Part shown: positions 1,058-21,460 of the stretch, one piece after another
Position numbering within the stretch: the first letter of the stretch is position 1
How the letters are laid out: every line of letters starts with the position of its first letter
Virus record (IMG/VR): IMGVR_UViG_3300028829_002873
Span: 1-22,475 of that record
DNA length: 22,475 bases
Source of the DNA: a virus
Reading direction: 5' to 3' (one strand)
Program-made: the position numbers and the translations under genes
Notes under the pieces: generated by a model
The model's input: only the letters and a program-made list of their open reading frames with translations
Databases searched by the model: none
Told to the model about the DNA's origin: nothing

Positions 1058-1969
1058 ATGCCTGTTCTTAAAAATAGGGCAAAGATGTCCACCAGTACAA
1101 CGGGTACTGGAACCATTACGCTTGGCTCTGCGGAGGATGGGTATCAAACCTTCGCAGATGCTGGCGTATCTAATGCAGATGTGGTTCGCTACGTTATTGA
1201 GGATGGCAGTAACTTTGAGATAGGCACAGGGACCTATACAAGCTCTGGCACTACCCTTTCACGCACGGTGAGCGAAAGCAGCAACTCAGACGCAGCTATT
1301 AACCTTAGCGGATCAGCTACTGTGTTTATCGGGGCTACGGCTGAAGATATTCCAGCGCCTTATTCTAGGAAAACTGCTAACTATACCGCTTCTTCAGGTG
1401 ATTTGGTTATTGCAGATACGTCAGGTGGTGTTTGGACACTGACTTTACCTGCCTCTCCCTCTACAGGTGATATTGTCACGGTCTCTGATGGGGACGACTG
1501 GTCAACCAATAACCTCACTATTGGAAGAAACAGCTCTACTATTGAGAGTGATGCTGCTGATATGACTATGGATGTGGGCGGTGTTTCAGTCCAATTCCTT
1601 TACGATGGTACAACTTGGCAAGTATATGCACAAGCTGGTGTCGAAGGTGGTGATGCAGAGTACGAGAAAGTAGGAACCATCTCCTCAAGTACACTTGACC
1701 TAGAAACGGGTAACGTTTTCTCTCATGCACCTTCAGCTAACGTAACTTATGTATTCAGCAATCCTCCTGCATCAGGAACTGCTTACGGCTTTACCTTAAA
1801 AGTTACACCGTCAGCTACTGTAACGGTTACTTGGCCCAGCGGTGTCGATTGGGCAGGTGGTACGGCACCAGATGCACCAGCATCAGGAGAGACTGATGTG
1901 TACGCCTTCTATACGCAAGATGGTGGAACAACGTACTACGGTTTCCAAGCTGGAGATGCTATGTCATGA
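1058..1969 (+). CDS. Three-domain tail-fibre-like protein
   Basis: This 303-residue protein shows three beta domains. Residues 1-100 (opening MPVLKNRAKMSTSTTGTGTI, with YVIEDGSNFEIGTGTYT) form a module I know from the start of many marine phage fibre proteins. Residues 105-192 (ANYTASSGDLVIADTSGG, then FLYDGTTWQVYA) match a fibre domain often placed before receptor-binding regions. Residues 205-303 (LETGNVFSHAPSANVTYVFS, TVTWPSGVDW, YYGFQAGDAMS) form a compact closing domain. An AAAGGGG sequence precedes the ATG at good spacing. The stop overlaps the next start as ATGA, so the two are translationally coupled. A role in host recognition or fibre assembly is inferred from the domains; trimerisation is not shown. 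Confidence 0.82.
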   Translation: MPVLKNRAKMSTSTTGTGTITLGSAEDGYQTFADAGVSNADVVRYVIEDGSNFEIGTGTYTSSGTTLSRTVSESSNSDAAINLSGSATVFIGATAEDIPAPYSRKTANYTASSGDLVIADTSGGVWTLTLPASPSTGDIVTVSDGDDWSTNNLTIGRNSSTIESDAADMTMDVGGVSVQFLYDGTTWQVYAQAGVEGGDAEYEKVGTISSSTLDLETGNVFSHAPSANVTYVFSNPPASGTAYGFTLKVTPSATVTVTWPSGVDWAGGTAPDAPASGETDVYAFYTQDGGTTYYGFQAGDAMS

Positions 1970-3615
1970 GTATTTCAAGGCTTATGATGCAATGCAGCTC
2001 TGCTAGCGTTCCAGAAGGCGCATACACCTTAGACAGCCCAAAGCCAAAGAAACAATTTCAAAGGCTTTTCGTGGGGAACAAGGATATTTCGCCTCGCGGT
2101 GTTTTTTTAAAAGCGGACGGAACAAAAGTATATTTTACTGGCGGCGGCAGTCGCCAAATCCACCAGTACAATCTCAGCACTGCATTTGACTTAGGTACTA
2201 ATACATATTTTGGCAAAGTAGAGCTTGGATTGAGATATCCCGGCGCTTTGATATTTAAGCCTGACGGCACCAAAGTTTATTTTATCAACAGTTCGACCAC
2301 CGATTATGTGGAAGAGTGGGATCTATCTACGGCGTGGAATATTACAACCGCATCTGCCCATGCAACATATACCATAACACACGAAATTTATCCCTCTGGT
2401 TTATTCTTCAAGCCTGATGGCACTAGGATGTACGTTACCGGCAGTAATGACGATAACTGCATAGAGTACGATCTCAGCACGGCATGGGACGTCACTACCG
2501 TTTCGTATTCCAGAGAGGTATCCACCGGAATTACTAGTTACCCCCGTGATGTTTTTTTTAAAACCGATGGTACTAAAATGTACATCACAGAGGATGTTTT
2601 TGGTCAGAACGACAATACTATACGCGAGTACAATTTATCCACGGCATGGAACGTCACTACAGCAAGTTTTAGTCAAGAACTTCAGACAGAGAATCCCGCT
2701 TTTAATACCAACGTGAAAACAAGTCAGATTTATGGAATTTACTTTAAGTCTGATGGCACGAAAGCTTTTTATACAGGGGAGTCGCAGGATAGAATTGCAG
2801 GTATAGAACTTTCAACGGCTTGGGATATTTCAACGGCTAGTTGGCCTACTGCGGTCAATACCTCTGGAAGCAGCTTCTTTGTACAAACAAATTCATCTTA
2901 TGACATTAATCAAACAGGTCTGTATATGAAGCCAGACGGCTCGGCTTTTTACACGACTTGCTCATCAAGACGAGCAGTATATCGGTATAATATGAGCAGT
3001 GCATTTAATATTGGTACTGCGATTTATAATTCTACGCTGTCAGTTTCTACAAATGCGTATGGTGTATCTGGTATAACTTTTAAACCAGACGGCACAAAGA
3101 TGTACCTAACCGATATTGACTCCGATAGTGTAAGGAGTTGGACGCTTAGTACTGCATGGGACATAACCACAGCGTCTTATGACAGCGTTTCAGTGTCGAT
3201 ATCAAACAACCCTGCTGGAGTTAGGTTTAAACCAGACGGCACACGAATGTACGTGGTAGAAGATAACTCTGACGATGTACGAGAATATACCCTTAGTACA
3301 GCATGGAATCTTTCAACTGCATCATTTTCACGAGAGTTCAATTTAACTTCGTATCAAAACAAACCAGCTGAAATTTTAATATCACCTAATGGCGATAAGC
3401 TTTTTGTTTGTGGCATTAATTCTTCATTAAATCAATCTGATGTAGATGAATTTACGCTTAGTACACCGTGGGACATCACTTCAGCAAGTCATGTACAAAC
3501 CTTCGATGCTTCTTTTGTTGCGCGAACCATAACAGGCATGGATTTCAACAATGACGGTACTTCGCTTTTTTTACAATACAAAACTGAAATAATTGAAATT
3601 GACCTTACGTCTTAG
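1966..3615 (+). CDS. Ten-repeat beta-propeller protein in the fibre cluster
   Basis: The 549-residue product contains ten copies of a ~50-residue unit. Each has a strand-turn motif of the type FKPDGTKMY, with the Asp-Gly near residues 51, 100, 151, 201, 264, 325, 376, 424, 476 and 530. Nine are followed by a strand of the type YxLSTAWDITTAS. This is the layout of a WD/YVTN/NHL-like beta-propeller. There is no signal peptide or catalytic motif. Ten units could make one ten-bladed propeller, or seven blades plus an extra domain. The start overlaps the previous stop (ATGA), which places it in the fibre operon. A surface role in binding host glycan or protein is plausible but inferred. The first unit lacks the Trp of the LSTAW motif and the last is degenerate. 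Confidence 0.83.
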   Translation: MSISRLMMQCSSASVPEGAYTLDSPKPKKQFQRLFVGNKDISPRGVFLKADGTKVYFTGGGSRQIHQYNLSTAFDLGTNTYFGKVELGLRYPGALIFKPDGTKVYFINSSTTDYVEEWDLSTAWNITTASAHATYTITHEIYPSGLFFKPDGTRMYVTGSNDDNCIEYDLSTAWDVTTVSYSREVSTGITSYPRDVFFKTDGTKMYITEDVFGQNDNTIREYNLSTAWNVTTASFSQELQTENPAFNTNVKTSQIYGIYFKSDGTKAFYTGESQDRIAGIELSTAWDISTASWPTAVNTSGSSFFVQTNSSYDINQTGLYMKPDGSAFYTTCSSRRAVYRYNMSSAFNIGTAIYNSTLSVSTNAYGVSGITFKPDGTKMYLTDIDSDSVRSWTLSTAWDITTASYDSVSVSISNNPAGVRFKPDGTRMYVVEDNSDDVREYTLSTAWNLSTASFSREFNLTSYQNKPAEILISPNGDKLFVCGINSSLNQSDVDEFTLSTPWDITSASHVQTFDASFVARTITGMDFNNDGTSLFLQYKTEIIEIDLTS

Positions 3616-7823: not shown

Positions 7824-9425
7824 ATGGCTACATATACAAGCACTAATGGCGTAAAGTTAATATCCACGGGCGACGAAGCTGGTACATGGGGGGATAGTAC
7901 CAACGTCAACTTGCAGATATTAGACAGGGCTGCGAATGGGTTTGCCTCTATTGCTCTTACGGGTACGTCCTACACTCTTCCCGTTGCGGCGCAGCCTTCT
8001 GCGGCCCAAGACGGGCACTATAAAGCTATAAAGTTTACGGGCACCCCCGGCGGGGTTTGCACAGTTACTCTGGAGCAGAATGATCGTGCCCGAATGTATA
8101 TGCTAGTAAACAGCACCAACCAGACCGTTATTATTACTCAGGGCAGCGGAGCAAATGTGACCATTGCGGCAGGTGATTCCGCTACGGTATTAGCCGATGG
8201 CGCAGGTTCAGGTGCGGCGATAGAAGCGTTTTCTAATGCAATCTCTATGCCTGTTGCAACAATTGCAGTTACAGTAGCAAATCCCGGTTCAGGTAATAAA
8301 TACTATATTGATGGCTCTCTGCAACAAACCGTTCAGCTTAAACCCTCTGTTACATATAGGTTTGATCAGTCTGATGGTACAAACGCTACGCACCCCTTAG
8401 CTTTCTCCACGAATGATAACAACTCGCCTTCTGCCCCATTTACCACAGGTGTTACAACGGTGGGTACGCCGGGAAGTGCGGGAGCGTATACTCAGATAAG
8501 ATTAGAACAAGATGCTCCTACCCTTTTGTATTATTATTGCACAAATCATTCCGGAATGGGCGGCAAGGCGGTGGTTCGTGTAGGTGACAATTCTCAATTT
8601 AGTCAAAACCCTGTAAGCGCCACAGACCCCTCCGCAACAGGAGACAATGCAATTGCTATTGGAAGCCATGCGGTGGCGGATGGAGAGCGGGGGGTTGCGA
8701 TAGGTAAATCTAAAGCAACAGGTGAGAGGTCGCTGGCGATTAACATTAACAACAATGCGGCTTTTGGCGCTGCGGGTGATGACAGTATTGCAATAGGGAT
8801 TCAAGCCTCCGCCGCTTCAAATTACTCCATTGCCATAGGAAACACGGCTTCTTCCTCAAACGCAGAGGCTATCGCGATTGGGGATACGGCAACGGCGAGT
8901 GGGGCTAAATCGGTAGCGTTAGGCGTATTTGCTAAAGCAGACACTAGCTATGGAATGGCGTTGGGGCACTATTCCAGAGCGCGTAGAGTTGGACAACAAG
9001 CTTTTGCGTCAGGCTATTTTGCAAACCAAGGCGATGCACAAACTGGAACGTATGTTTTGCGGGGTTTGACAGTAAATTCAACCAGCACAGTAGTTTTAAC
9101 TACGGATGGGGGTGCCGCCTCTGGAAGTAATCAAGTAGTGTTGGAAACGGGCGCTGCTATGGCCTTTAAAGTCCTTATTATAGGTCGGCAGGATAGCGGG
9201 GGCACCGACTCTTATATGTACGAATACACGGGGTATGCTAAAAATAACAGCGGCACAATAACGGTTGGTTCCCAATTAGGGTATAATGCGTATTCTTCAT
9301 CTCTTACAATAACTTTGGCGGCGGATAATACTAACAATGCTTTAGGCATTTCAGTAGTAGGACGAAACCTAACTAATATTCGTTGGGTTGCAACAGTATT
9401 TACCTCTGAGGTAAGTTGGAGTTAG
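7824..9425 (+). CDS. Modular tail fibre with cupredoxin-like and YadA-head-like domains
   Basis: The 533-residue protein has four parts. Residues 1-140 form a fibre N-terminal module (MATYTSTNGVKLISTGDEAG, with TWGDSTNVNLQILDRA), the kind that attaches fibres in marine phages. Residues 145-253 look like a cupredoxin fold, with H190 and a YYYCTNHSGMGG motif giving C239, H242 and M245, the type 1 copper ligand pattern. Residues 276-387 hold about seven YadA/Hep_Hag head repeats of the type SIAIGxxAxA, which in adhesins form a trimeric beta-roll. Residues 390-533 form a closing domain (GYFANQGDAQTGTYVLRG to IRWVATVFTSEVSW) found at phage fibre tips. It starts after a GTAGG sequence and the promoter candidate. 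Host attachment is likely; copper binding is a prediction. Confidence 0.85.
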   Translation: MATYTSTNGVKLISTGDEAGTWGDSTNVNLQILDRAANGFASIALTGTSYTLPVAAQPSAAQDGHYKAIKFTGTPGGVCTVTLEQNDRARMYMLVNSTNQTVIITQGSGANVTIAAGDSATVLADGAGSGAAIEAFSNAISMPVATIAVTVANPGSGNKYYIDGSLQQTVQLKPSVTYRFDQSDGTNATHPLAFSTNDNNSPSAPFTTGVTTVGTPGSAGAYTQIRLEQDAPTLLYYYCTNHSGMGGKAVVRVGDNSQFSQNPVSATDPSATGDNAIAIGSHAVADGERGVAIGKSKATGERSLAININNNAAFGAAGDDSIAIGIQASAASNYSIAIGNTASSSNAEAIAIGDTATASGAKSVALGVFAKADTSYGMALGHYSRARRVGQQAFASGYFANQGDAQTGTYVLRGLTVNSTSTVVLTTDGGAASGSNQVVLETGAAMAFKVLIIGRQDSGGTDSYMYEYTGYAKNNSGTITVGSQLGYNAYSSSLTITLAADNTNNALGISVVGRNLTNIRWVATVFTSEVSWS

Positions 9426-9431
9426 TTTTAA

Positions 9432-11963
9432 ATGCCTTATACAGACCTAAGATTTAAAGCTGGAATCAACAAAGAGATCACTCCTTACTCTGAGGAGAAC
9501 GGCTGGATTGATTGCGATAAAATTCGTTTTAGGTTTGGCTATCCAGAGAAGCTTAACGGCTGGGATAAAAGTTCAACTTCCGATAAAGCTTTTCTTGGTC
9601 AGTGCCGTGGATTACATGAATGGGTTGCTCTCAGCGGAGAAAAGTTTTTAGGCGTAGGGACTGAACAGAAGTATTATATTAAGCAGGGTACAGACTATAA
9701 AGATATTACGCCTTTAAGGGCGACTGGAGAAGCTGTTTCTATTGTAGCTGGATCAAACTCGTCAACACTTACAATAACGGATCTTAATCACGGTTGTGTT
9801 GTAGATGATTTTGTAACTTTTACAACAAACACTTATGATGGTTCCGCTTCTGCCTCTGCTAACGCTCTTGCTATACAAGATTTAACTATAGGCATTCTTT
9901 CCGCTGCTGTTAACTCTTCAACAAATAATGCAAAAGCCTTGTTTAAAGACACGATTATTTCAGGATCTCGCCCTGTTGGTGATATTACAGATGACGGTTC
10001 CGTTAGCGCCGACGATGCTTTGGAGTATGCGAAATACTTTATTGGTCAACAGACAAACGCTACCTACACAAGCTACATTGAAAATACTTTACATCCTTTT
10101 TTAATCACCAATCATACAGGTGGTTCTGGTACAACAGGAGATCCCGGCCCGTACTCTTTTTATTTTGATAATGCTTCTTCTATAATGACGGGTAGTGTTC
10201 TTTCACAAGAGTATCAGGTTACGGAAGTCGTAGATGCAAACACTTATAAGGTGGTTGCTAGGTCAGTAAGTAGCATAGAAAGTATTACCGCTTCAGGTGG
10301 TCTAAGTTTTACACCTTTAGTTAATGACACATGGATAGGAGGAATTAAGGGGACGGCTGCTTACCAGATTGGAACAGGGTTAAATACTTCTGTACAGGGT
10401 ATTGGATGGGGCGCGGGTCTTTGGGGTGGAACTAATGATGGTGCCCTAACAACAAATTTAACAGCGTCTATAAACAATTCTGTTACCACGGTTCCTGTTG
10501 TGTCTAGCACAGGGATTACTGCGGGAGATACTATTTTAATAGGTGGGACAGAATTAGTTACGGTTGGTTCTGTAAGTTCTAATGATTTGCAAGGATGTAC
10601 TCGCGGGGTAAAAGGCACTTCTGCGTCTAGCCATAGTGATCAAGCGTCCGTTATTTTGGCTACAGATGCCAATGCTGATTCAAGTACAGAATTAAACGGC
10701 TGGGGGGAAGGTATCGCAACTGGAACTCAGACCGGTACAAGTAATCTTCGCATATGGTCACATGATAACTTTGGTGAAGACCTTATATTTAACGAGCGTA
10801 ATGGTCAGGTATTTTACTGGGAAAAAACAACTGGGGTTGGTACACGCGGTGTAGAGCTTTCAACGATATCTGGAAGTCCTACGTCTGTGCCACAGAAAGC
10901 CGCACAAGTACTTTTATCAGATCGTGACAGGCATGTGATTGCATTTGGCTGCGATGGATTGGGTGCTTCGCCCTCAACAGCTAAAGGAGACGGCACACAG
11001 GACCCGATGTTAATTAGGTTCTCCAGTCAAGCTAATCCAATTGATTGGTATCCAACAGAAACAAACAGTGCCGATTCTTTAAGAATCGATTCGGGGTCAA
11101 AGATTGTTCAAGCTGTAGAAACAAGGCAGCAAATCCTTGTCTTTACAGATGTTGCCATCTACGCAATGCAGTTTGTTGGGCCACCATTTACCTTTGGTAT
11201 CAACCTTATTTCTAGCAACATAAGTATTGCCAGCCCTAAAGCCGCTGTCGCAGTAGATGATGCCGTCTTTTGGATGGGAGCCGCAGAGTTTTATTCTTAC
11301 ACAGGTGCCGTACAGCGTATTCCTTGCACGGTTCGGGACCATGTATTTAATGACTTTAATACAGGGCAGTCTGATAAGGTTGCGTCGGGGTCCAACATTT
11401 CTTTTGGAGAGGTTTGGTGGTTTTACCCTTCCGCGGATTCTACGGAAAACGACAGTTACGTTGTTTACAACTACTTTGAAAAACTGTGGTACGTTGGAAA
11501 ACTATCTAGAACCGCTTGGTTAGATCGTGGGATATCTGCACTACCAATAGGCGCGGGAGATCAAAACTTTTTATATAGCCATGAGGTTGGGTCAGTTTAT
11601 ACAGACGAGACTCAGAACACCGCGTCGTTTATTGAGTCTGGGGATCTTGGGATTTCAGACGGCAATCAGTTTTCCTTTGTAAGTAGGGTCTTACCTGATT
11701 TAAATTTCAGAGAAACTACTAACAACGACACTACTGTGGATTTTATACTAAGCGCAAAAAATGCGCCGGGATTACCCGCGCAAACCACTAATACCAACAC
11801 TCTTACCAAGACGGAAAGTGTCCCCGTAGATAAATATACAAGTCAGTATCAGACCAGACTAAGAGGTCGTAGTTTTAGATTTAAGGTCCAGTCTACGGAT
11901 AATGAAGTTTTATGGCGGTTAGGTATTCCTCGCGTTGACATAAGACCGGATGGGAGAAGATAA
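9432..11963 (+). CDS. Conserved large virion protein, possibly tail nozzle or DNA-stabilisation protein
   Basis: This 843-residue protein belongs to a family I know from marine podoviruses. It opens with KAGINKEITPYSEENGWIDC and DKIRFRFGYPEKLNGWD. Later motifs are LRIWSHDNFGEDLIFNERNG (439-458), DRDRHVIAFG (497-506), IDWYPTETNSAD (537-548), VFTDVAIYAMQFVGPPFTFG (570-589) and VVYNYFEKLWYVGKL. Repeated strand motifs suggest a beta-propeller like the tail-hub stabilisation protein gp10 of P22, but that link is from memory and weak. Residues about 131-255 and 341-409 look like inserted modules, the first with a dockerin-like loop. The start has a GGAG in the end of the preceding gene. The stop overlaps the next ATG (TAATG at 11961). 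Confidence 0.8.
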   Translation: MPYTDLRFKAGINKEITPYSEENGWIDCDKIRFRFGYPEKLNGWDKSSTSDKAFLGQCRGLHEWVALSGEKFLGVGTEQKYYIKQGTDYKDITPLRATGEAVSIVAGSNSSTLTITDLNHGCVVDDFVTFTTNTYDGSASASANALAIQDLTIGILSAAVNSSTNNAKALFKDTIISGSRPVGDITDDGSVSADDALEYAKYFIGQQTNATYTSYIENTLHPFLITNHTGGSGTTGDPGPYSFYFDNASSIMTGSVLSQEYQVTEVVDANTYKVVARSVSSIESITASGGLSFTPLVNDTWIGGIKGTAAYQIGTGLNTSVQGIGWGAGLWGGTNDGALTTNLTASINNSVTTVPVVSSTGITAGDTILIGGTELVTVGSVSSNDLQGCTRGVKGTSASSHSDQASVILATDANADSSTELNGWGEGIATGTQTGTSNLRIWSHDNFGEDLIFNERNGQVFYWEKTTGVGTRGVELSTISGSPTSVPQKAAQVLLSDRDRHVIAFGCDGLGASPSTAKGDGTQDPMLIRFSSQANPIDWYPTETNSADSLRIDSGSKIVQAVETRQQILVFTDVAIYAMQFVGPPFTFGINLISSNISIASPKAAVAVDDAVFWMGAAEFYSYTGAVQRIPCTVRDHVFNDFNTGQSDKVASGSNISFGEVWWFYPSADSTENDSYVVYNYFEKLWYVGKLSRTAWLDRGISALPIGAGDQNFLYSHEVGSVYTDETQNTASFIESGDLGISDGNQFSFVSRVLPDLNFRETTNNDTTVDFILSAKNAPGLPAQTTNTNTLTKTESVPVDKYTSQYQTRLRGRSFRFKVQSTDNEVLWRLGIPRVDIRPDGRR

Positions 11964-14949: not shown

Positions 14950-17553
14950 ATGAACGAAGGTTTTAGATCACTGCCTGAAGATGTGCAGAAAAAGATATTA
15001 GGCAAAGCGATGGGCGGCGTAATGCAGCGTCCTTTGTTCCGTCAGATGGGCGGTCCAGCGCAGCCTATGCCGCAAGACATGGTGCAGCAACCTATGATGC
15101 CGCCTGCGGAACCAACGGCCCAAGCTGAAATGCAGGGGCAGGCTGTTGGGGAAGAAGTAGCGGCTCGCACAATGGGTAACATAGATGCGGCTACTGATGT
15201 TAAATCTGCGATTGACGCGCTTCGGGGCAATGCGGCTCCCATAGAAGCGCGGTATCAGGAGCTTGCTAACTTTGTTGGAGAACGGGACGCGGCCCAAACG
15301 CCAGAGTCCGTTTTGGCTTTGACCCAGCCTGCCATTATGATGACAGAGCAGGGGGCGATGGACAGCGGCATTGGCGAGTTAATGCAGAAGGTTGCGGGCG
15401 ACACGCAAATGGACCAAGGCATGGACCAAGGGTTAGGCGGCTTAATGATGCAGGGGGCGGGAAACACACCACCCCAAAATTTTAGGCAGGGTGGGCCCGT
15501 AGAGGTCCGTCACTTTAGAGAAGGAACTCCTCCTACCGGAAACAGAAGTGTTCCTAAGCGAGCAAGAGAAATGCTCCCGCAATTCCAGCCTCTGTTTGAA
15601 GAAATTACAGGAACAGCGGAGGAGCGGGCAGCGCAATTAGAACGAGATCGTCAAAGCGCCCGATCCGATGCTATGTTTAACCTTGCCAACTTTGGTTTGG
15701 CCTTTGCGGGAGAGACGCAAGGTAACACAATTGCGGAAAGATTAGCTAATGCGGCAACACGTTCCAACGTTGTCGGAGGTTTTCAACAGGCGGGTAAAGA
15801 TGTTTTAGCCGCTAAGAAAGCGCAAGAGGCCCAAGATCTTCAAACGCGGACCGCGGCTCTACAAACATCAATTGGGCAAGCTCAAACAGAACAAGCTCAA
15901 GAAGCGGCTTCTGCTCAAGCAGTAGCTGTGGCGGAAGCTAAGAAAAAACCTCAAAAAAGGGAGTTTGAAGATTTTTATACCGTTGACAAAGACGGGCTTC
16001 CAAAACTTTTGGGTTCAGTAGATCTTTTTTCTCCAGATTATGCTGCAAAAGTAAGGGCATTAGCAAATGCAGCGGTGGCCGATGGACAAGAGTTTTACAA
16101 TGCAAAAACCATTGCACCTTTTATTGAAAAACAGGCGTTAATTTTAAAACAAGGTGTAACTGGTGAAGACACTGAGTTTGTTACAGTTCAAAACGCGTTT
16201 ACCGTTACAAATCCGGACGGAACCTCAAAAACCTTGTCTCCGGGGCAAAATCTGTATTTAACAAAATCTCAGTTGTCAAAACACCGCGATAAAGTGCAAC
16301 CTTATATAGACGCCACTGAATTAGTGACTTTGTATTCTATTGACGGCAAAGACGTCAAAACCTTTTCAAAGGGCGCTCCGAAAGTTCAAGAGTTGATTGG
16401 ATCAGAAAGTTGGTCAACGGATGGAACGGCTTATCGTAATGCCATACAGGAAGAAAAAGAACTTAGAATTTTGGCCGAAACAGTTAAAAAGCGTGACAAC
16501 ATTGTTATCAGACAAAATGCGCAAGGTCAGCTTGTTGTGTTCGATACAACTCAACTCGCGGCAGGAAATACTGAGCCTTTAGCCACGTTGGGTGATCCTG
16601 AAGTTCCAGATGCAGACTACAAAATCTTCTCTTACGTTGACGAATCTGGAACACAACAGTCTGTGCTAAGTGATCTTAACTCAAAATCGGGTAAAAAATT
16701 ACTGGAAAAAGTAAACAACGCACTAGAAAACGGTCGTACTGGAAAACTTCAAAACATAAGCACAGAAAGCGTAACTCCGAAAGGTTATTTAATACCAGAG
16801 AAGGGTGTCTTTACTAGCTACGATGGCGGAAAGACGTATGTAGATCAAGAAGGTGTATCTCAAACGGTGCCCGGTGGAGCAATGCCGATTAGTGATACCG
16901 TTGCATATCAAATAAACAAAACTGAACGGATGCGAGCCTCTGCAATAAAAGCTTTAGAAGAAATGGATTTATCCATTATTAAAAATTTTGAAGGCACCCC
17001 AGAAGAAAGAGCTTTAGTTAAAAACGCGTATGAGTCTGCAAGGACGGGTACAGGTTTCTGGAGCAAAGTTTACGCAGGAATTGATGCAGTAGTTGGTGGA
17101 ATTACAGGGGCAGACCTTGCTATAGAAACTCAAGATGCTCGTCAGTTTGTTCGTATGATTCGCGTTCTTGGTAGATCTGCACTTGCAGCTTCTCCAAGAT
17201 ATGCGGTTGCGGATCTTGCAACTACAGAACAATTGTTTCCAAACGAACAGACGTTGCTTGCAAACCCTGAAACAGAAGCTCGTAAACTTCTTCTTCTTCG
17301 CAAAGAAATTACTTTTGAAAAGGAACGTATTTTAACCAAAATAGCCAGTGGTGATCCGATAGAATCTTCTGAAATGACGCGTCTTAACCAAAAGCTCTTT
17401 GAAATAGATCGTTTGAACGATTTATTAGGGCCCGCTGAAACTATCTTTGCTAACACCAGCGGAGATTCTTTTGAGGCGGGAAAAGATATTTTGCAGAAAT
17501 CTTTGGATGCTGCAAAAGAAAAACAAAAGAAAACGGGGCCTTCGGGAAATTGA
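14950..17553 (+). CDS. Probable internal virion protein, 867 residues, coiled coil
   Basis: The N-terminal ~200 residues are Met/Gln/Pro/Gly-rich and disordered, with VMQRPLFRQMGGP (25-36), PESVLALTQPAIMMTEQGAM (118-137) and NFRQGGPVEVRHFREG (177-192). The middle phrase recurs in marine phage genomes. Residues 222-335 are strongly helical and Gln/Ala-rich, probably a coiled coil. Residues 340-640 form several beta domains with DG turns. The C-terminal part (650-867) is helical, with ARQFVRMIRVLGRSALAASP and LLLLRKEITFEKERILTKIA. A GGGG lies before the start, and the ATG follows the previous stop without a gap. No enzyme motif is visible. It probably belongs with its neighbours to the ejected set. 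Confidence 0.78.
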   Translation: MNEGFRSLPEDVQKKILGKAMGGVMQRPLFRQMGGPAQPMPQDMVQQPMMPPAEPTAQAEMQGQAVGEEVAARTMGNIDAATDVKSAIDALRGNAAPIEARYQELANFVGERDAAQTPESVLALTQPAIMMTEQGAMDSGIGELMQKVAGDTQMDQGMDQGLGGLMMQGAGNTPPQNFRQGGPVEVRHFREGTPPTGNRSVPKRAREMLPQFQPLFEEITGTAEERAAQLERDRQSARSDAMFNLANFGLAFAGETQGNTIAERLANAATRSNVVGGFQQAGKDVLAAKKAQEAQDLQTRTAALQTSIGQAQTEQAQEAASAQAVAVAEAKKKPQKREFEDFYTVDKDGLPKLLGSVDLFSPDYAAKVRALANAAVADGQEFYNAKTIAPFIEKQALILKQGVTGEDTEFVTVQNAFTVTNPDGTSKTLSPGQNLYLTKSQLSKHRDKVQPYIDATELVTLYSIDGKDVKTFSKGAPKVQELIGSESWSTDGTAYRNAIQEEKELRILAETVKKRDNIVIRQNAQGQLVVFDTTQLAAGNTEPLATLGDPEVPDADYKIFSYVDESGTQQSVLSDLNSKSGKKLLEKVNNALENGRTGKLQNISTESVTPKGYLIPEKGVFTSYDGGKTYVDQEGVSQTVPGGAMPISDTVAYQINKTERMRASAIKALEEMDLSIIKNFEGTPEERALVKNAYESARTGTGFWSKVYAGIDAVVGGITGADLAIETQDARQFVRMIRVLGRSALAASPRYAVADLATTEQLFPNEQTLLANPETEARKLLLLRKEITFEKERILTKIASGDPIESSEMTRLNQKLFEIDRLNDLLGPAETIFANTSGDSFEAGKDILQKSLDAAKEKQKKTGPSGN

Positions 17554-17554
17554 T

Positions 17555-20500
17555 ATGGCGGAAGAACAACCAAAACTAATTTTTTCTCAAGACGATCTTA
17601 CTTCTTTGTTCCAAACTTATGGGATGGGCGACGAAGACGTACCAGAAGCCACCGTTGAGGCGCGTGTTGCCAAAGGTATGATAGATACTTTTAATAGTGG
17701 CTTCGGTACAGAAATGACTTACGAACAGTATCGTAACGCAGGTGTACCAGACCGGGAAATAATTCAACTTTTGTCTGAGGATCTGGACGGGAATCCCATT
17801 CAAACCGGAACATTTTTGCAAGGAATGAAGAGAGAGGCCATTCCTACTGCGGTATCCGTACCGACTTTTATGGGTGGTTTTTCGTTAGGGCAAAAGCTTG
17901 TTGCAGGAGTTCCCCCGACCTCCCCCGTCACGGCTGCGGTTCGCATAGGAGTTCCCTTAGTTTTAGGCAGTATAACAGGCATGGCAGGTTATATGATTGG
18001 TGATGAAGTTGCTGAAAAAGTTACCGATGAACCAATTATTTACCCTTTTCATCGTGAAAAATACGAAGCGGGCAGAACAGGTACTGGTGTTTTAGCATTT
18101 GGCGCAATGCCCTTTATGCTTCCAAAACAACTTAATTTTGGAGTTGAACTTGCCAGAAAAACGCTTGGGGGTCAAAAATCTATTTCAACTAGCGCAGTAG
18201 ATTTTTTAGAAAAATCTGTAGGTAGAATGGGCGGCACCGCAAGAGCCGCACCTTTTACATTTGGCGCTTTTGAAGGAATTGCTGGAGCAGGTTCCGTAGC
18301 AGGAGCTTACGGCGCAGAAAAAGCTTATCCCGGTCAAATGTTCCCAAGGCTTGCGATGGAAATGGGCGGAGGGCTTTCTTTCTCTGTTATTGCAGATCTT
18401 TTTGGAACACGCTTAGTTAAGGGTTTAGCGCTTATTCCCAAAGGTGTGCGAGCGGTTAAAGAAGGTAGAGTTGGCGAAGCCATACAATATCTAGGGGATG
18501 AAAGAAAACGTCAAGCTACTAACTATATTTTAGAAACAATCGAAGAAGCAGGGGAAGATCCTGAAGAAATAATCAAACGCTTGGCATCTCAAGAATTTAC
18601 TGATCTTTTAGTAGACGAAAATGACCAACCAATTAATTTAACCGCAGGGTTGAAATCAGGTTCTCCTGCAATTTTAGCATTAGAAAAAGCATTAGAAAAA
18701 ACAGCGGGTGCTGGGGTTGGGAAAGAAAGAGCTTCTGCTAATGTCACGGCAACAAGGGCTCTTAGAAATGCTATTACGGCCTTGTATGCAAGTGATTCCC
18801 CTGAAGCAATTCAGGAAGGCGCTGTTTTTGCCCAAGCCATTTTTGAAAACGAACTTTCTGGGGATCTCGCAAAGGCTTCAAGGAAATTATTTGACGCTTT
18901 TCAGGCAATAGGCAGTCCAGATTCAAGGCAAGCTCAGTTAGGAGAAGCTTTTCAACAAATTTTAGCAGAGCGTTTGGCCGCGGCTCGCGTGAACGAAAAA
19001 CGTTTGTGGAGAGGCGTGAACCGTGGATTTGTGATTGATACTTTTACAGATCTTGACGGTAACGAAATAGACCGTCCAATGTTTGTTGAATTTTTGGATG
19101 ACCGTTTACCTACTACAAAAGAAGCCAAAGACGCGTTGTCTGGTGAGTTGACACCTATTTTTAGGTTTTACAAAAGAAAGCAAGAAGAGTTAGGGCTTTT
19201 AGATGACGCAGAAATAGATGCGGAACTTCGGGCTGACTTGGACATGTCCGCGGACGAAAGCCGTGCTTTAGGGAGATATGAAGAAAGTTTAGGTCAGCTA
19301 ATGGATGATGACCGAACTCGTGTTGAAGGTCTTCTTGAAAGAGCCCGCGAAATGGATCCCGATGAAGCGGTTGAATTTTTGCGGCAAGAGTCTCAGTATT
19401 ATCGCACACGTTCTCGTGATTACGATGATCCAAGAATGGTTCAAAGAATGGCGCTTACTATTGATCGTGCCGCGGATTTGCAAAGAGCGCGATTACAAGC
19501 GGGCCTCTCTCGCGGAACTTTTGAAGAAGGAGCGGGTCCAGACGTCGCTAATGACGTTGCGGGAATAACCGCAAATGAAATCTTTGACATGTACAGCACT
19601 TCTATAAATATTGGGAAGAAGCTTAACGCTCAAGGGGATTCAAACGGAGCAAATATAGCGTTTGGCTTTGCGCGTAAACTTATGGATGATTTAGACGCCG
19701 CCGATACAGATGACGCGGCCTATAATACGGCTCGTGCTTACTCCAGAGCTTTGAACGATGCTTTTACACGAACCTTTGCCAACGACTTACTTGCCGATGA
19801 AAAGACAGGCCGCATAAAGATTCTGCCGGATCAGGTTGCTCACAAGATTTTTTCTGCGGACGCGGGGTCAATGAGAACAAAACAATTAGATATGATTGGT
19901 CAGTTTGAATTAACCCAAGCTTTTACAACGTTATCTGAACAACGCGGGGATCCAAATCTAACCCGAACTCTTAATCGTGCAATGAAATACTCGCGTGATG
20001 AAGAAACTGGTCTAATGAATACAGCGCGTTTAAACCGTTGGTTAAGCAATAATCGCAAAAGTTTGTCACAGTATCCAGAGGTGTTGCAAACAGTTGAAGG
20101 CGCTGTAAAAACAACCTCCGATATCCGCGGAACGTTAGAGTTAATGATCCGAAACATTCGTGCCAATGCTTATAATCCAGATACTGGAGAAATAAGCATG
20201 GTAGGATTACGTCGTTGGATGGAAAACCCTAACAACGCTGATTTACTAGAAGCAATGCCCGCTTTGAAAGCTGATTTAGAAAATTCAGTAACTGCGAAAA
20301 ACCTTTTGGATGAGACGGCCCAAAAGGAGCGGGAAGCACGAGACGCTTTGAAAGGCACTGTATCTTTTATGGATCTGTTGCCAGATGCCACCGAAAACCC
20401 TGCTACTGCCGCTGCAATCGCGTTATCAAACAACCAGAAAAAACCGGTTCAATCTTGGGATAACTTACTTAATGTAGTCAAAAATGCGCCAGATGAATGG

Positions 20501-21460
20501 CAAGTAGGCAACCAAACTTACACAAAAAAAGATGCTATGGAAGGTTTACGGACAGCTTTCATCGAAGCGGCTATGGTTAAGGCGGGGGGATCTAGCAGAA
20601 CGTTTAGCTCAAGAACTTTCTTCGATACAATTTTTGCACCACATAGAAATTCAAAGGGAAACGTTTCTTTAGCCGATTGGATGACACAAAATGATGTTAT
20701 GTCCACAACAGAAATAAATAAATTACGCACCCTAACCACGGAACTTGTAAAAATGGAAAGTTTTGCAGCGAAGGGCGACGTTAATTTGGAAGATATTGCT
20801 GGAACTATAGGTCCGATGATGGATTTCTATTTGCGCGTTGCAGGTTCTTCTGTGGGTTCAAGTATGCAAAGGTTAATTCCGGGCGATACAGGGTCGGGTC
20901 AACTTGTTGCCGCAGGCGCAGGTTCCAAAGCTTTTTTAGGTGTTTACAACAAAGTTTTTAACCAGATCCCCGAAGCTTTAAAAATGGACGTTATGTCTGA
21001 AATGTTTAGAGATCCCGATTTGCTTGCTGCAATGCTAGCAAAGGGAAAAACTGAGAAAGAAAGGGCATCTATTGCTAAAACTCTTACCAAGAAATTGACA
21101 GAAAAGGGTTTTATAGCAGTAACGACTCCAATTAGACGGGCCGCACCAAGCGTTATTCGCGAACCTGCTCAAGAGGTAGATATTGAATTACCTGAACAAG
21201 AAGTTAATCCAGCCCTTGAACGGGCAAGAGAAATCTTAAAAGCACGAGAAGAAGCTTCTAACCAGTCGCCGCCTGTAGGCACTCCCACCACTCAGGCGGC
21301 TCTCCCCGCTCCGCAACCCCCCATGACTAGCGGGGCGGGGACGAATCCACAGGTTCGGCAACAATACGCCGCCCTGTTCCCAAATGACCCAATATCGGGT
21401 ATGTTGGTTCAACGGCCACGGACCTTCCGTCGCGGCGGCATAGCAAGCTTAATGGAGTAG
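17555..21460 (+). CDS. Giant internal virion protein (1301 residues), probable ejection protein
   Basis: I choose the ATG at 17555 (MAEEQPKLIF), one base after the previous stop, rather than the ATG at 17447. The earlier start would overlap 107 bases of the upstream gene with an unusual basic leader. Residues 95-150 and 235-297 contain hydrophobic Gly/Ala-rich helices (RIGVPLVLGSITGMAGYMIG; AFEGIAGAGSVAGAYGAEKA) able to contact a membrane. AYPGQMFPRLAMEMGGGLSF is a motif I know from marine phage giants. Residues 300-1180 are almost all helical and rich in Glu, Arg and Ala. A Pro-rich linker precedes the ending QYAALFPNDPISGML, TFRRGGIASLME. No transglycosylase or protease catalytic motif is seen. 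Size and position match a DNA-ejection channel protein; that role is inferred. Confidence 0.8.
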   Translation: MAEEQPKLIFSQDDLTSLFQTYGMGDEDVPEATVEARVAKGMIDTFNSGFGTEMTYEQYRNAGVPDREIIQLLSEDLDGNPIQTGTFLQGMKREAIPTAVSVPTFMGGFSLGQKLVAGVPPTSPVTAAVRIGVPLVLGSITGMAGYMIGDEVAEKVTDEPIIYPFHREKYEAGRTGTGVLAFGAMPFMLPKQLNFGVELARKTLGGQKSISTSAVDFLEKSVGRMGGTARAAPFTFGAFEGIAGAGSVAGAYGAEKAYPGQMFPRLAMEMGGGLSFSVIADLFGTRLVKGLALIPKGVRAVKEGRVGEAIQYLGDERKRQATNYILETIEEAGEDPEEIIKRLASQEFTDLLVDENDQPINLTAGLKSGSPAILALEKALEKTAGAGVGKERASANVTATRALRNAITALYASDSPEAIQEGAVFAQAIFENELSGDLAKASRKLFDAFQAIGSPDSRQAQLGEAFQQILAERLAAARVNEKRLWRGVNRGFVIDTFTDLDGNEIDRPMFVEFLDDRLPTTKEAKDALSGELTPIFRFYKRKQEELGLLDDAEIDAELRADLDMSADESRALGRYEESLGQLMDDDRTRVEGLLERAREMDPDEAVEFLRQESQYYRTRSRDYDDPRMVQRMALTIDRAADLQRARLQAGLSRGTFEEGAGPDVANDVAGITANEIFDMYSTSINIGKKLNAQGDSNGANIAFGFARKLMDDLDAADTDDAAYNTARAYSRALNDAFTRTFANDLLADEKTGRIKILPDQVAHKIFSADAGSMRTKQLDMIGQFELTQAFTTLSEQRGDPNLTRTLNRAMKYSRDEETGLMNTARLNRWLSNNRKSLSQYPEVLQTVEGAVKTTSDIRGTLELMIRNIRANAYNPDTGEISMVGLRRWMENPNNADLLEAMPALKADLENSVTAKNLLDETAQKEREARDALKGTVSFMDLLPDATENPATAAAIALSNNQKKPVQSWDNLLNVVKNAPDEWQVGNQTYTKKDAMEGLRTAFIEAAMVKAGGSSRTFSSRTFFDTIFAPHRNSKGNVSLADWMTQNDVMSTTEINKLRTLTTELVKMESFAAKGDVNLEDIAGTIGPMMDFYLRVAGSSVGSSMQRLIPGDTGSGQLVAAGAGSKAFLGVYNKVFNQIPEALKMDVMSEMFRDPDLLAAMLAKGKTEKERASIAKTLTKKLTEKGFIAVTTPIRRAAPSVIREPAQEVDIELPEQEVNPALERAREILKAREEASNQSPPVGTPTTQAALPAPQPPMTSGAGTNPQVRQQYAALFPNDPISGMLVQRPRTFRRGGIASLME

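Follow-up and report, generated by a model that had tools for sequence, protein, structure and literature searches.

Does a phage tail fibre carry a type 1 copper site of the kind found in cupredoxins? The question is raised by an IMG/VR virus record of 22,475 bases (the whole stretch of DNA analysed here, referred to as the window), in which one tail fibre protein contains a histidine followed further on by a Cys-x2-His-x2-Met cluster. The original prediction had read these four residues as the possible ligands of a type 1 copper (cupredoxin) site, and this reading is largely supported by ligand conservation, by the predicted fold and by cupredoxin homology established through a bridging subfamily.

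Layout of the fibre and its source phage

The residues H190, C239, H242 and M245 are present in the fibre exactly as proposed, and the span of 8391-8558 given for them is correct (Table 1). Their C-x2-H-x2-M spacing is indeed that of amicyanin 1AAC (...YDYHCTPHPFMRGKVVVE), and from the fibre's own composition 0.00028 such motifs would be expected by chance. The domain was said to lie between an attachment module and YadA-like repeats, in agreement with the profile matches: an N-terminal module (phrog_31104, residues 2-128), common to other marine phage fibres, precedes it, and YadA_head repeats (PF05658, four stretches) begin directly C-terminal of it at residue 271. Judging from its N-terminal position, the first module is likely to serve in virion attachment. 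A profile of the domain family matched the fibre domain with an E-value of 1.9e-43, calculated on a small set of ORFs. The stretch used for modelling comprised residues 140-255 (8241-8588).

Table 1 Features of the tail fibre gene (window coordinates).
Feature	Coordinates	Strand	Basis
Tail fibre protein, 533 aa	7824..9425	+	ORF and translation; PHROG tail fibre families
N-terminal module, residues 2-128	7827..8207	+	phrog_31104, E 3.2e-14
Cupredoxin-like domain, residues 146-249	8259..8570	+	Family profile, AF2, Foldseek, bridge by sequence
His190, first putative copper ligand (HPLAFS)	8391..8393	+	H in 212/213 non-redundant members
Cys239, putative copper thiolate ligand	8538..8540	+	C in 210/210 members
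His242, putative copper ligand	8547..8549	+	H in 209/210 members
Met245, putative axial copper ligand	8556..8558	+	M in 206/209; rare exceptions His, Glu, Leu
Best of four YadA-type head repeat stretches, residues 271-294	8634..8705	+	PF05658, E 6e-15

The window phage is most likely a podovirus, because the ORF adjoining the fibre (9432-11963) is related to 'needle head' or packaged-DNA stabilisation proteins of the P22 type; its best matches are to one phage that infects Gammaproteobacteria and to phages of Roseobacter and SAR11. The adjacent ORFs 161-595 and 606-1043 both match phrog_644, to which PHROGs assigns no function, and form an apparent tandem duplication. A short fibre-like ORF (1058-1969) adjoins an ORF with beta-propeller matches (1966-3615; Lactonase PF10282, E 2.4e-11, and SGL). 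The large ORFs 14950-17553 and 17447-21460 gave no significant Pfam match, and the former was equally unmatched in PHROGs and in a tblastn search of the phage collection; both may encode internal virion or ejection proteins.

Conservation of the putative ligands

Alignment of homologues had been named as a check on the prediction, with free variation of the ligands as the outcome that would speak against it. The four ligands proved to be near-invariant instead: across 213 non-redundant members they were kept in 97-100% (individual counts in Table 1), and most other positions were variable. The sole invariant columns in an alignment of 84 diverse sequences were Y39, H51, C100, H103 and M106, four of the five being ligands; this alignment excluded two deviant members (L201 and L368), which were counted in the tally of 213 members and in the masked-profile tally below. 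A set of 15 diverse sequences showed no variation at columns Y35, F37, H47, C96, H99, M102 and G103. The ligands thus occur as His-Cys-His-Met in the canonical order and positions of a type 1 site. The loop that bears the last three varies in length by one residue, with C-x2-H-x2-M in 255 distinct members and C-x2-H-x3-M in 58. Immediately after the first His, 96% of members have Pro.

One of the scan patterns contained the Cys-His-Met peptide and so carried a risk of ascertainment bias, for which controls were run. A profile with the ligand columns masked recruited 409 full-length sequences, of which 405 kept the set; in the four exceptions Met was replaced by His (two) or Leu (one), or the second His and Met were both lost (one). 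The full set was likewise present in 210 of the 218 domains without any literal pattern peptide, and phage copies found by BLAST also kept it. Individual site variants are rare and comprise His to Gln plus Met to Glu in L368:1992-2348, Met to His in L200 and L201, and Met to Leu in L430, the last being a change that type 1 sites tolerate. A role of Cys239 in an intradomain disulfide was ruled out, because a single Cys is present in 313 of 320 distinct domains.

Predicted fold

The AF2 model built on the 84-sequence alignment has nine strands, with a pLDDT of 94.9 and a pTM of 0.88. In model numbering (residue 1 = 140), His190 is placed just before the strand at 53-56, Cys239 ends the strand at 95-100, and the loop leading to the strand at 107-112 contains His242 and Met245. 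By these secondary-structure positions, the predicted placement of the His, the Cys and the His-Met pair along the strands is the cupredoxin arrangement. A Foldseek search of the PDB with this model returned rusticyanin first (E 9e-6), followed by Cu nitrite reductase, laccases, CueO, pseudoazurin and plastocyanin. The structure prediction proposed originally thus led to cupredoxins as the best PDB matches. A second model, made for the subfamily with the C-x2-H-x3-M loop (A3; pLDDT 96.5), had Cu nitrite reductase (E 1e-4), small laccases and rusticyanin as its first matches. Ranks 1-31 for the first model and 1-34 for the second were occupied entirely by copper proteins of cupredoxin fold, at TM-scores that were moderate, mostly 0.5-0.64, with high rmsd. 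In two subfamilies, therefore, the modelled domain resembles the Greek-key beta-sandwich of solved cupredoxins. In BFVD, the model is also resembled, with E about 1e-7, by small 'beta-sandwich proteins' of Marseillevirus LCMAC201 and Pithovirus LCPAC304 (A0A481YVH3 and A0A481Z7Q7).

Homology to cupredoxins by sequence

Direct comparison of the window domain with cupredoxins fell short of significance. A single-sequence search of the PDB with the window domain gave no match. Against Copper-bind (PF00127) it scored 13.7 bits (E 0.087), below the curated cut-off of 21.2 bits, and it is therefore filed only as a divergent cupredoxin; the match to the pseudoazurin model TIGR02375 (E 0.056) was also below threshold. 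The profile of the window's own family (A2) retrieved PDB cupredoxins at E 0.2-1.2, sub-threshold and mixed with immunoglobulin (Ig) proteins, two of which scored better, and a SUMO chain. Direct hhalign of A2 with 15 Copper-bind sequences gave Prob 54 and P 1.2e-4, with only the Cys-His-Met region aligned, against P 0.03-0.9 for reversed and shuffled controls. For amicyanin, no significant sequence match to the window domain was obtained; only the loop spacing is shared, and no methylamine dehydrogenase was recognised among the window ORFs scanned. We accordingly place the domain neither in PF00127 nor with amicyanin.

These direct matches were insufficient alone, and a bridging subfamily was therefore sought. 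It was found in a second domain of a protein of Prochlorococcus phage MED4-213 (L099, open-frame residues about 683-785). In a single-sequence search of the PDB, all 24 matches of this domain were of cupredoxin fold, the best being plastocyanin 1B3I (E 6e-4). The alignment of the subfamily (A4), in which His, Cys, His and Met are invariant, matched Cu nitrite reductase (5.8e-8), rusticyanin (4e-6), plastocyanin (1.6e-5) and amicyanin (2.7e-4) as a profile against the PDB. Among its members, 39 of 40 matched Copper-bind (best 2.2e-5) and 15 of 40 matched Cupredoxin_1 (best 1.4e-5), counting E-values up to 1. A2 and A4 in turn aligned by hhalign with Prob 99.1 and E 1.3e-18 and with the four ligands in register, so that His190 is aligned with an invariant His of the bridging subfamily, itself aligned with the ligand His of rusticyanin. 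An A4-type profile also found the window ORF directly (E 1.5e-7, among the small set of window ORFs only). Aligned with Copper-bind, the bridging profile reached Prob 97, and the combined profile of the bridging subfamily and the window family Prob 95. It is because of this subfamily, and only through it, that the cupredoxin homology of the fibre domain is significant by sequence.

The bridging domain itself (L099:5675-5983, + strand) represents a second cupredoxin-like type, closer to the canonical one, and has counterparts at loci L418-L497; the proteins concerned are large structural proteins of cyanophages. Further copies are frequent in these ORFs (2-4 per ORF), which suggests multi-copper tail proteins.

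A large family in marine phage virion proteins

The remark that similar sequence occurs in other marine phage fibres proved well founded. At least 589 relatives were found in IMG/VR with the window domain as first query, further loci were recruited by four divergent queries, and 48 annotated phage records contain the domain, with Synechococcus, Prochlorococcus, Candidatus Pelagibacter and Methylophilales as hosts. S-TIM5, Syn1, P-SSM2 and HTVC028P are among the cultured phages that have it. The domain thus defines a large family, named in neither Pfam nor NCBIfam, in virion proteins of marine phages that infect cyanobacteria, SAR11 and OM43. The proteins that bear it are annotated as tail fibre, virion structural or hypothetical proteins. 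PHROG families 27200, 30742, 677, 708 and 693 contain it; these are whole-protein clusters labelled tail fibre, baseplate wedge or function not given, in which the domain is neither named nor tied to copper.

Among 84,980 species genomes scanned by pattern, just 12 had the domain, in some cases at least within phage-like loci, and the family is for this reason mainly viral; a search of plasmids gave no match. Two cellular occurrences differ in context. A SAR86 genome contig (L090:4872-5393, + strand) encodes, beside bacterial chromosome genes, a protein of 174 aa that begins with a lipobox-like sequence (LLYAC) and is made up for the most part of the fibre-family cupredoxin-like domain; it is a possible cellular counterpart or source of that domain. 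In an alphaproteobacterial single-cell genome (L091:1173-3962, + strand), the domain lies inside a surface-type protein with FG-GAP repeats that adjoins an RTX/RCC1 protein.

Within phage proteins, the domain was found in fibres, baseplate wedge proteins and wedge-fibre connectors of unrelated phages, in places with 2-4 copies per protein. It is mostly internal and usually not the fibre tip, since it is C-terminal in just 48 of the 314 ORFs with a known end.

Identity of the domain and possible role of the metal

Because conservation, fold matches and homology through A4 agree, residues about 146-249 of the fibre are almost certainly a divergent cupredoxin domain with an intact type 1 ligand set. 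The domain probably binds one copper ion once it is outside the reducing cytoplasm; if the fibre is a trimer, as the YadA-type repeats suggest, there would be three coppers per fibre. We consider it the best explanation, with a probability of roughly 0.6, that this divergent cupredoxin depends on copper and serves the fibre trimer as a module for structure or adhesion. The His, Cys and Met loops would be fastened to one another by the copper, in a way comparable to the iron held in the T4 gp37 fibre tip, leaving an exposed His-Met face free for contacts, and the metal-locked beta-sandwich could then give tail and baseplate proteins a rigid unit for structure or adhesion. A reusable module fits better than one receptor-specific tip, because the domain is mostly internal, occurs in several kinds of protein and is sometimes present in 2-4 copies; the metal is taken to matter because the metal set is strictly retained. 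The simplest reading is thus a beta-sandwich locked by copper, which contributes both stiffness and an adhesive face.

Strict conservation may nevertheless mean more than stability, because evolution could, in principle, dispense with a metal whose role is structural alone. It is conceivable, though we think it unlikely, that copper on many marine phage tails is active in infection, as a ligand for host copper uptake or as a redox-sensitive trigger. The first of these would have the copper-loaded domain dock on a copper-responsive outer membrane transporter or a copper-handling surface protein of the host, so that host copper acquisition is exploited for adsorption. Precedents exist: secreted azurin binds the copper TonB-dependent transporter OprC in P. 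aeruginosa, so cupredoxins can dock on such transporters (PMC6907878), pyocins enter via the copper-regulated transporter CrtA (PMC10422930), and an analogous Ferrojan, or Trojan horse, hypothesis has been put forward for iron in HxH phage fibres (PMC11705849). Strict conservation of the ligands also fits a role of the metal itself. However, copies of the domain are also located mid-fibre, in baseplate wedge proteins and in connectors, positions at which one would not look for a receptor-binding tip; the hosts, moreover, differ greatly from one another, and the receptor is only hypothetical. Given the azurin, pyocin and iron precedents, docking may be regarded as testable, and it is doubtful enough that we do not favour it.

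Less probable still is a domain that keeps the cupredoxin fold but naturally holds a different metal or no metal at all, with the four residues retained for folding. Type 1 sites take several metals in vitro, and the rare members with Met to His, or with His to Gln plus Met to Glu, are consistent with such a reading. Yet His2-Cys-Met is the copper set in known proteins, and in lineages that do not need copper, such as many plant phytocyanin-like proteins, the ligands vary, unlike the 97-100% retention observed here.

Slightly less probable again is a switch in which a Cu(II)/Cu(I) change at the reducing host surface, or electron exchange with a host protein, tunes when ejection occurs or which conformation the fibre or baseplate adopts. 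In its favour, the ligands are those of electron-transfer cupredoxins and align in register with the ones of rusticyanin and plastocyanin, and the domain does occur in baseplate proteins. The partner is only hypothetical, however, type 1 copper sites are built not to move on redox change, and the second-shell residue after the first His is unlike that of electron carriers. Finally, an ordinary Ig-like fibre domain with a chance C-x2-H-x2-M string, suggested by some Ig proteins among the weak sequence and fold matches (rank 32 in the first Foldseek search), was rejected as very improbable on the near-invariance of the four residues, the ranking of cupredoxins ahead of Ig domains in both fold searches and the significant cupredoxin matches of the bridging subfamily profile.

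In the open literature searched, no description of a cupredoxin in a phage virion was found. Retention of the four ligands in nearly all of several hundred relatives suggests that many ocean phages may carry copper (or another metal) on their tails. If the domain binds copper, a large class of phages of Synechococcus, Prochlorococcus, SAR11 and OM43 bears copper centres on the tail, copper joins the metals used in phage tails, many 'hypothetical' virion proteins are partly explained, and phages already in culture would allow a direct test of whether copper chemistry is linked to the adsorption of phages in seawater. Were the copper also active in infection, copper availability would be a determinant of phage adsorption in the ocean.

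Comparison with known systems

The fibre domain shares with amicyanin, plastocyanin and pseudoazurin (PF00127) the His...Cys-x2-His-x2-Met order, with amicyanin spacing, a length of about 105 residues, a His before a strand, a Cys that ends the penultimate strand, aromatic residues before the Cys and a Gly near the Met. In contrast to these proteins, which are free periplasmic or lumenal carriers, it sits inside a fibre, and the segment from its first His to the Cys includes a conserved GT-x-GSAGAYT region peculiar to it. The first His is followed by Pro, where plastocyanin and amicyanin have Asn; together with the fibre location and the viral distribution, this sets the domain apart from electron carriers. 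Rusticyanin and the N-terminal cupredoxin domain of Hyphomicrobium Cu nitrite reductase are the best fold matches of the two models and among the best A4 profile matches, with the ligands in register, at 11-17% identity and moderate TM-scores; rusticyanin differs in being longer (about 155 aa) and in its longer Cys-His-Met loop. T4 gp37 and other HxH fibres resemble the fibre described here in having metal-binding residues in a phage tail fibre, with proposed structural and receptor roles (PMC11705849). In those fibres iron is held by motifs of the trimer, whereas here the putative site lies within one domain and consists of the Cys-His2-Met set typical of copper.
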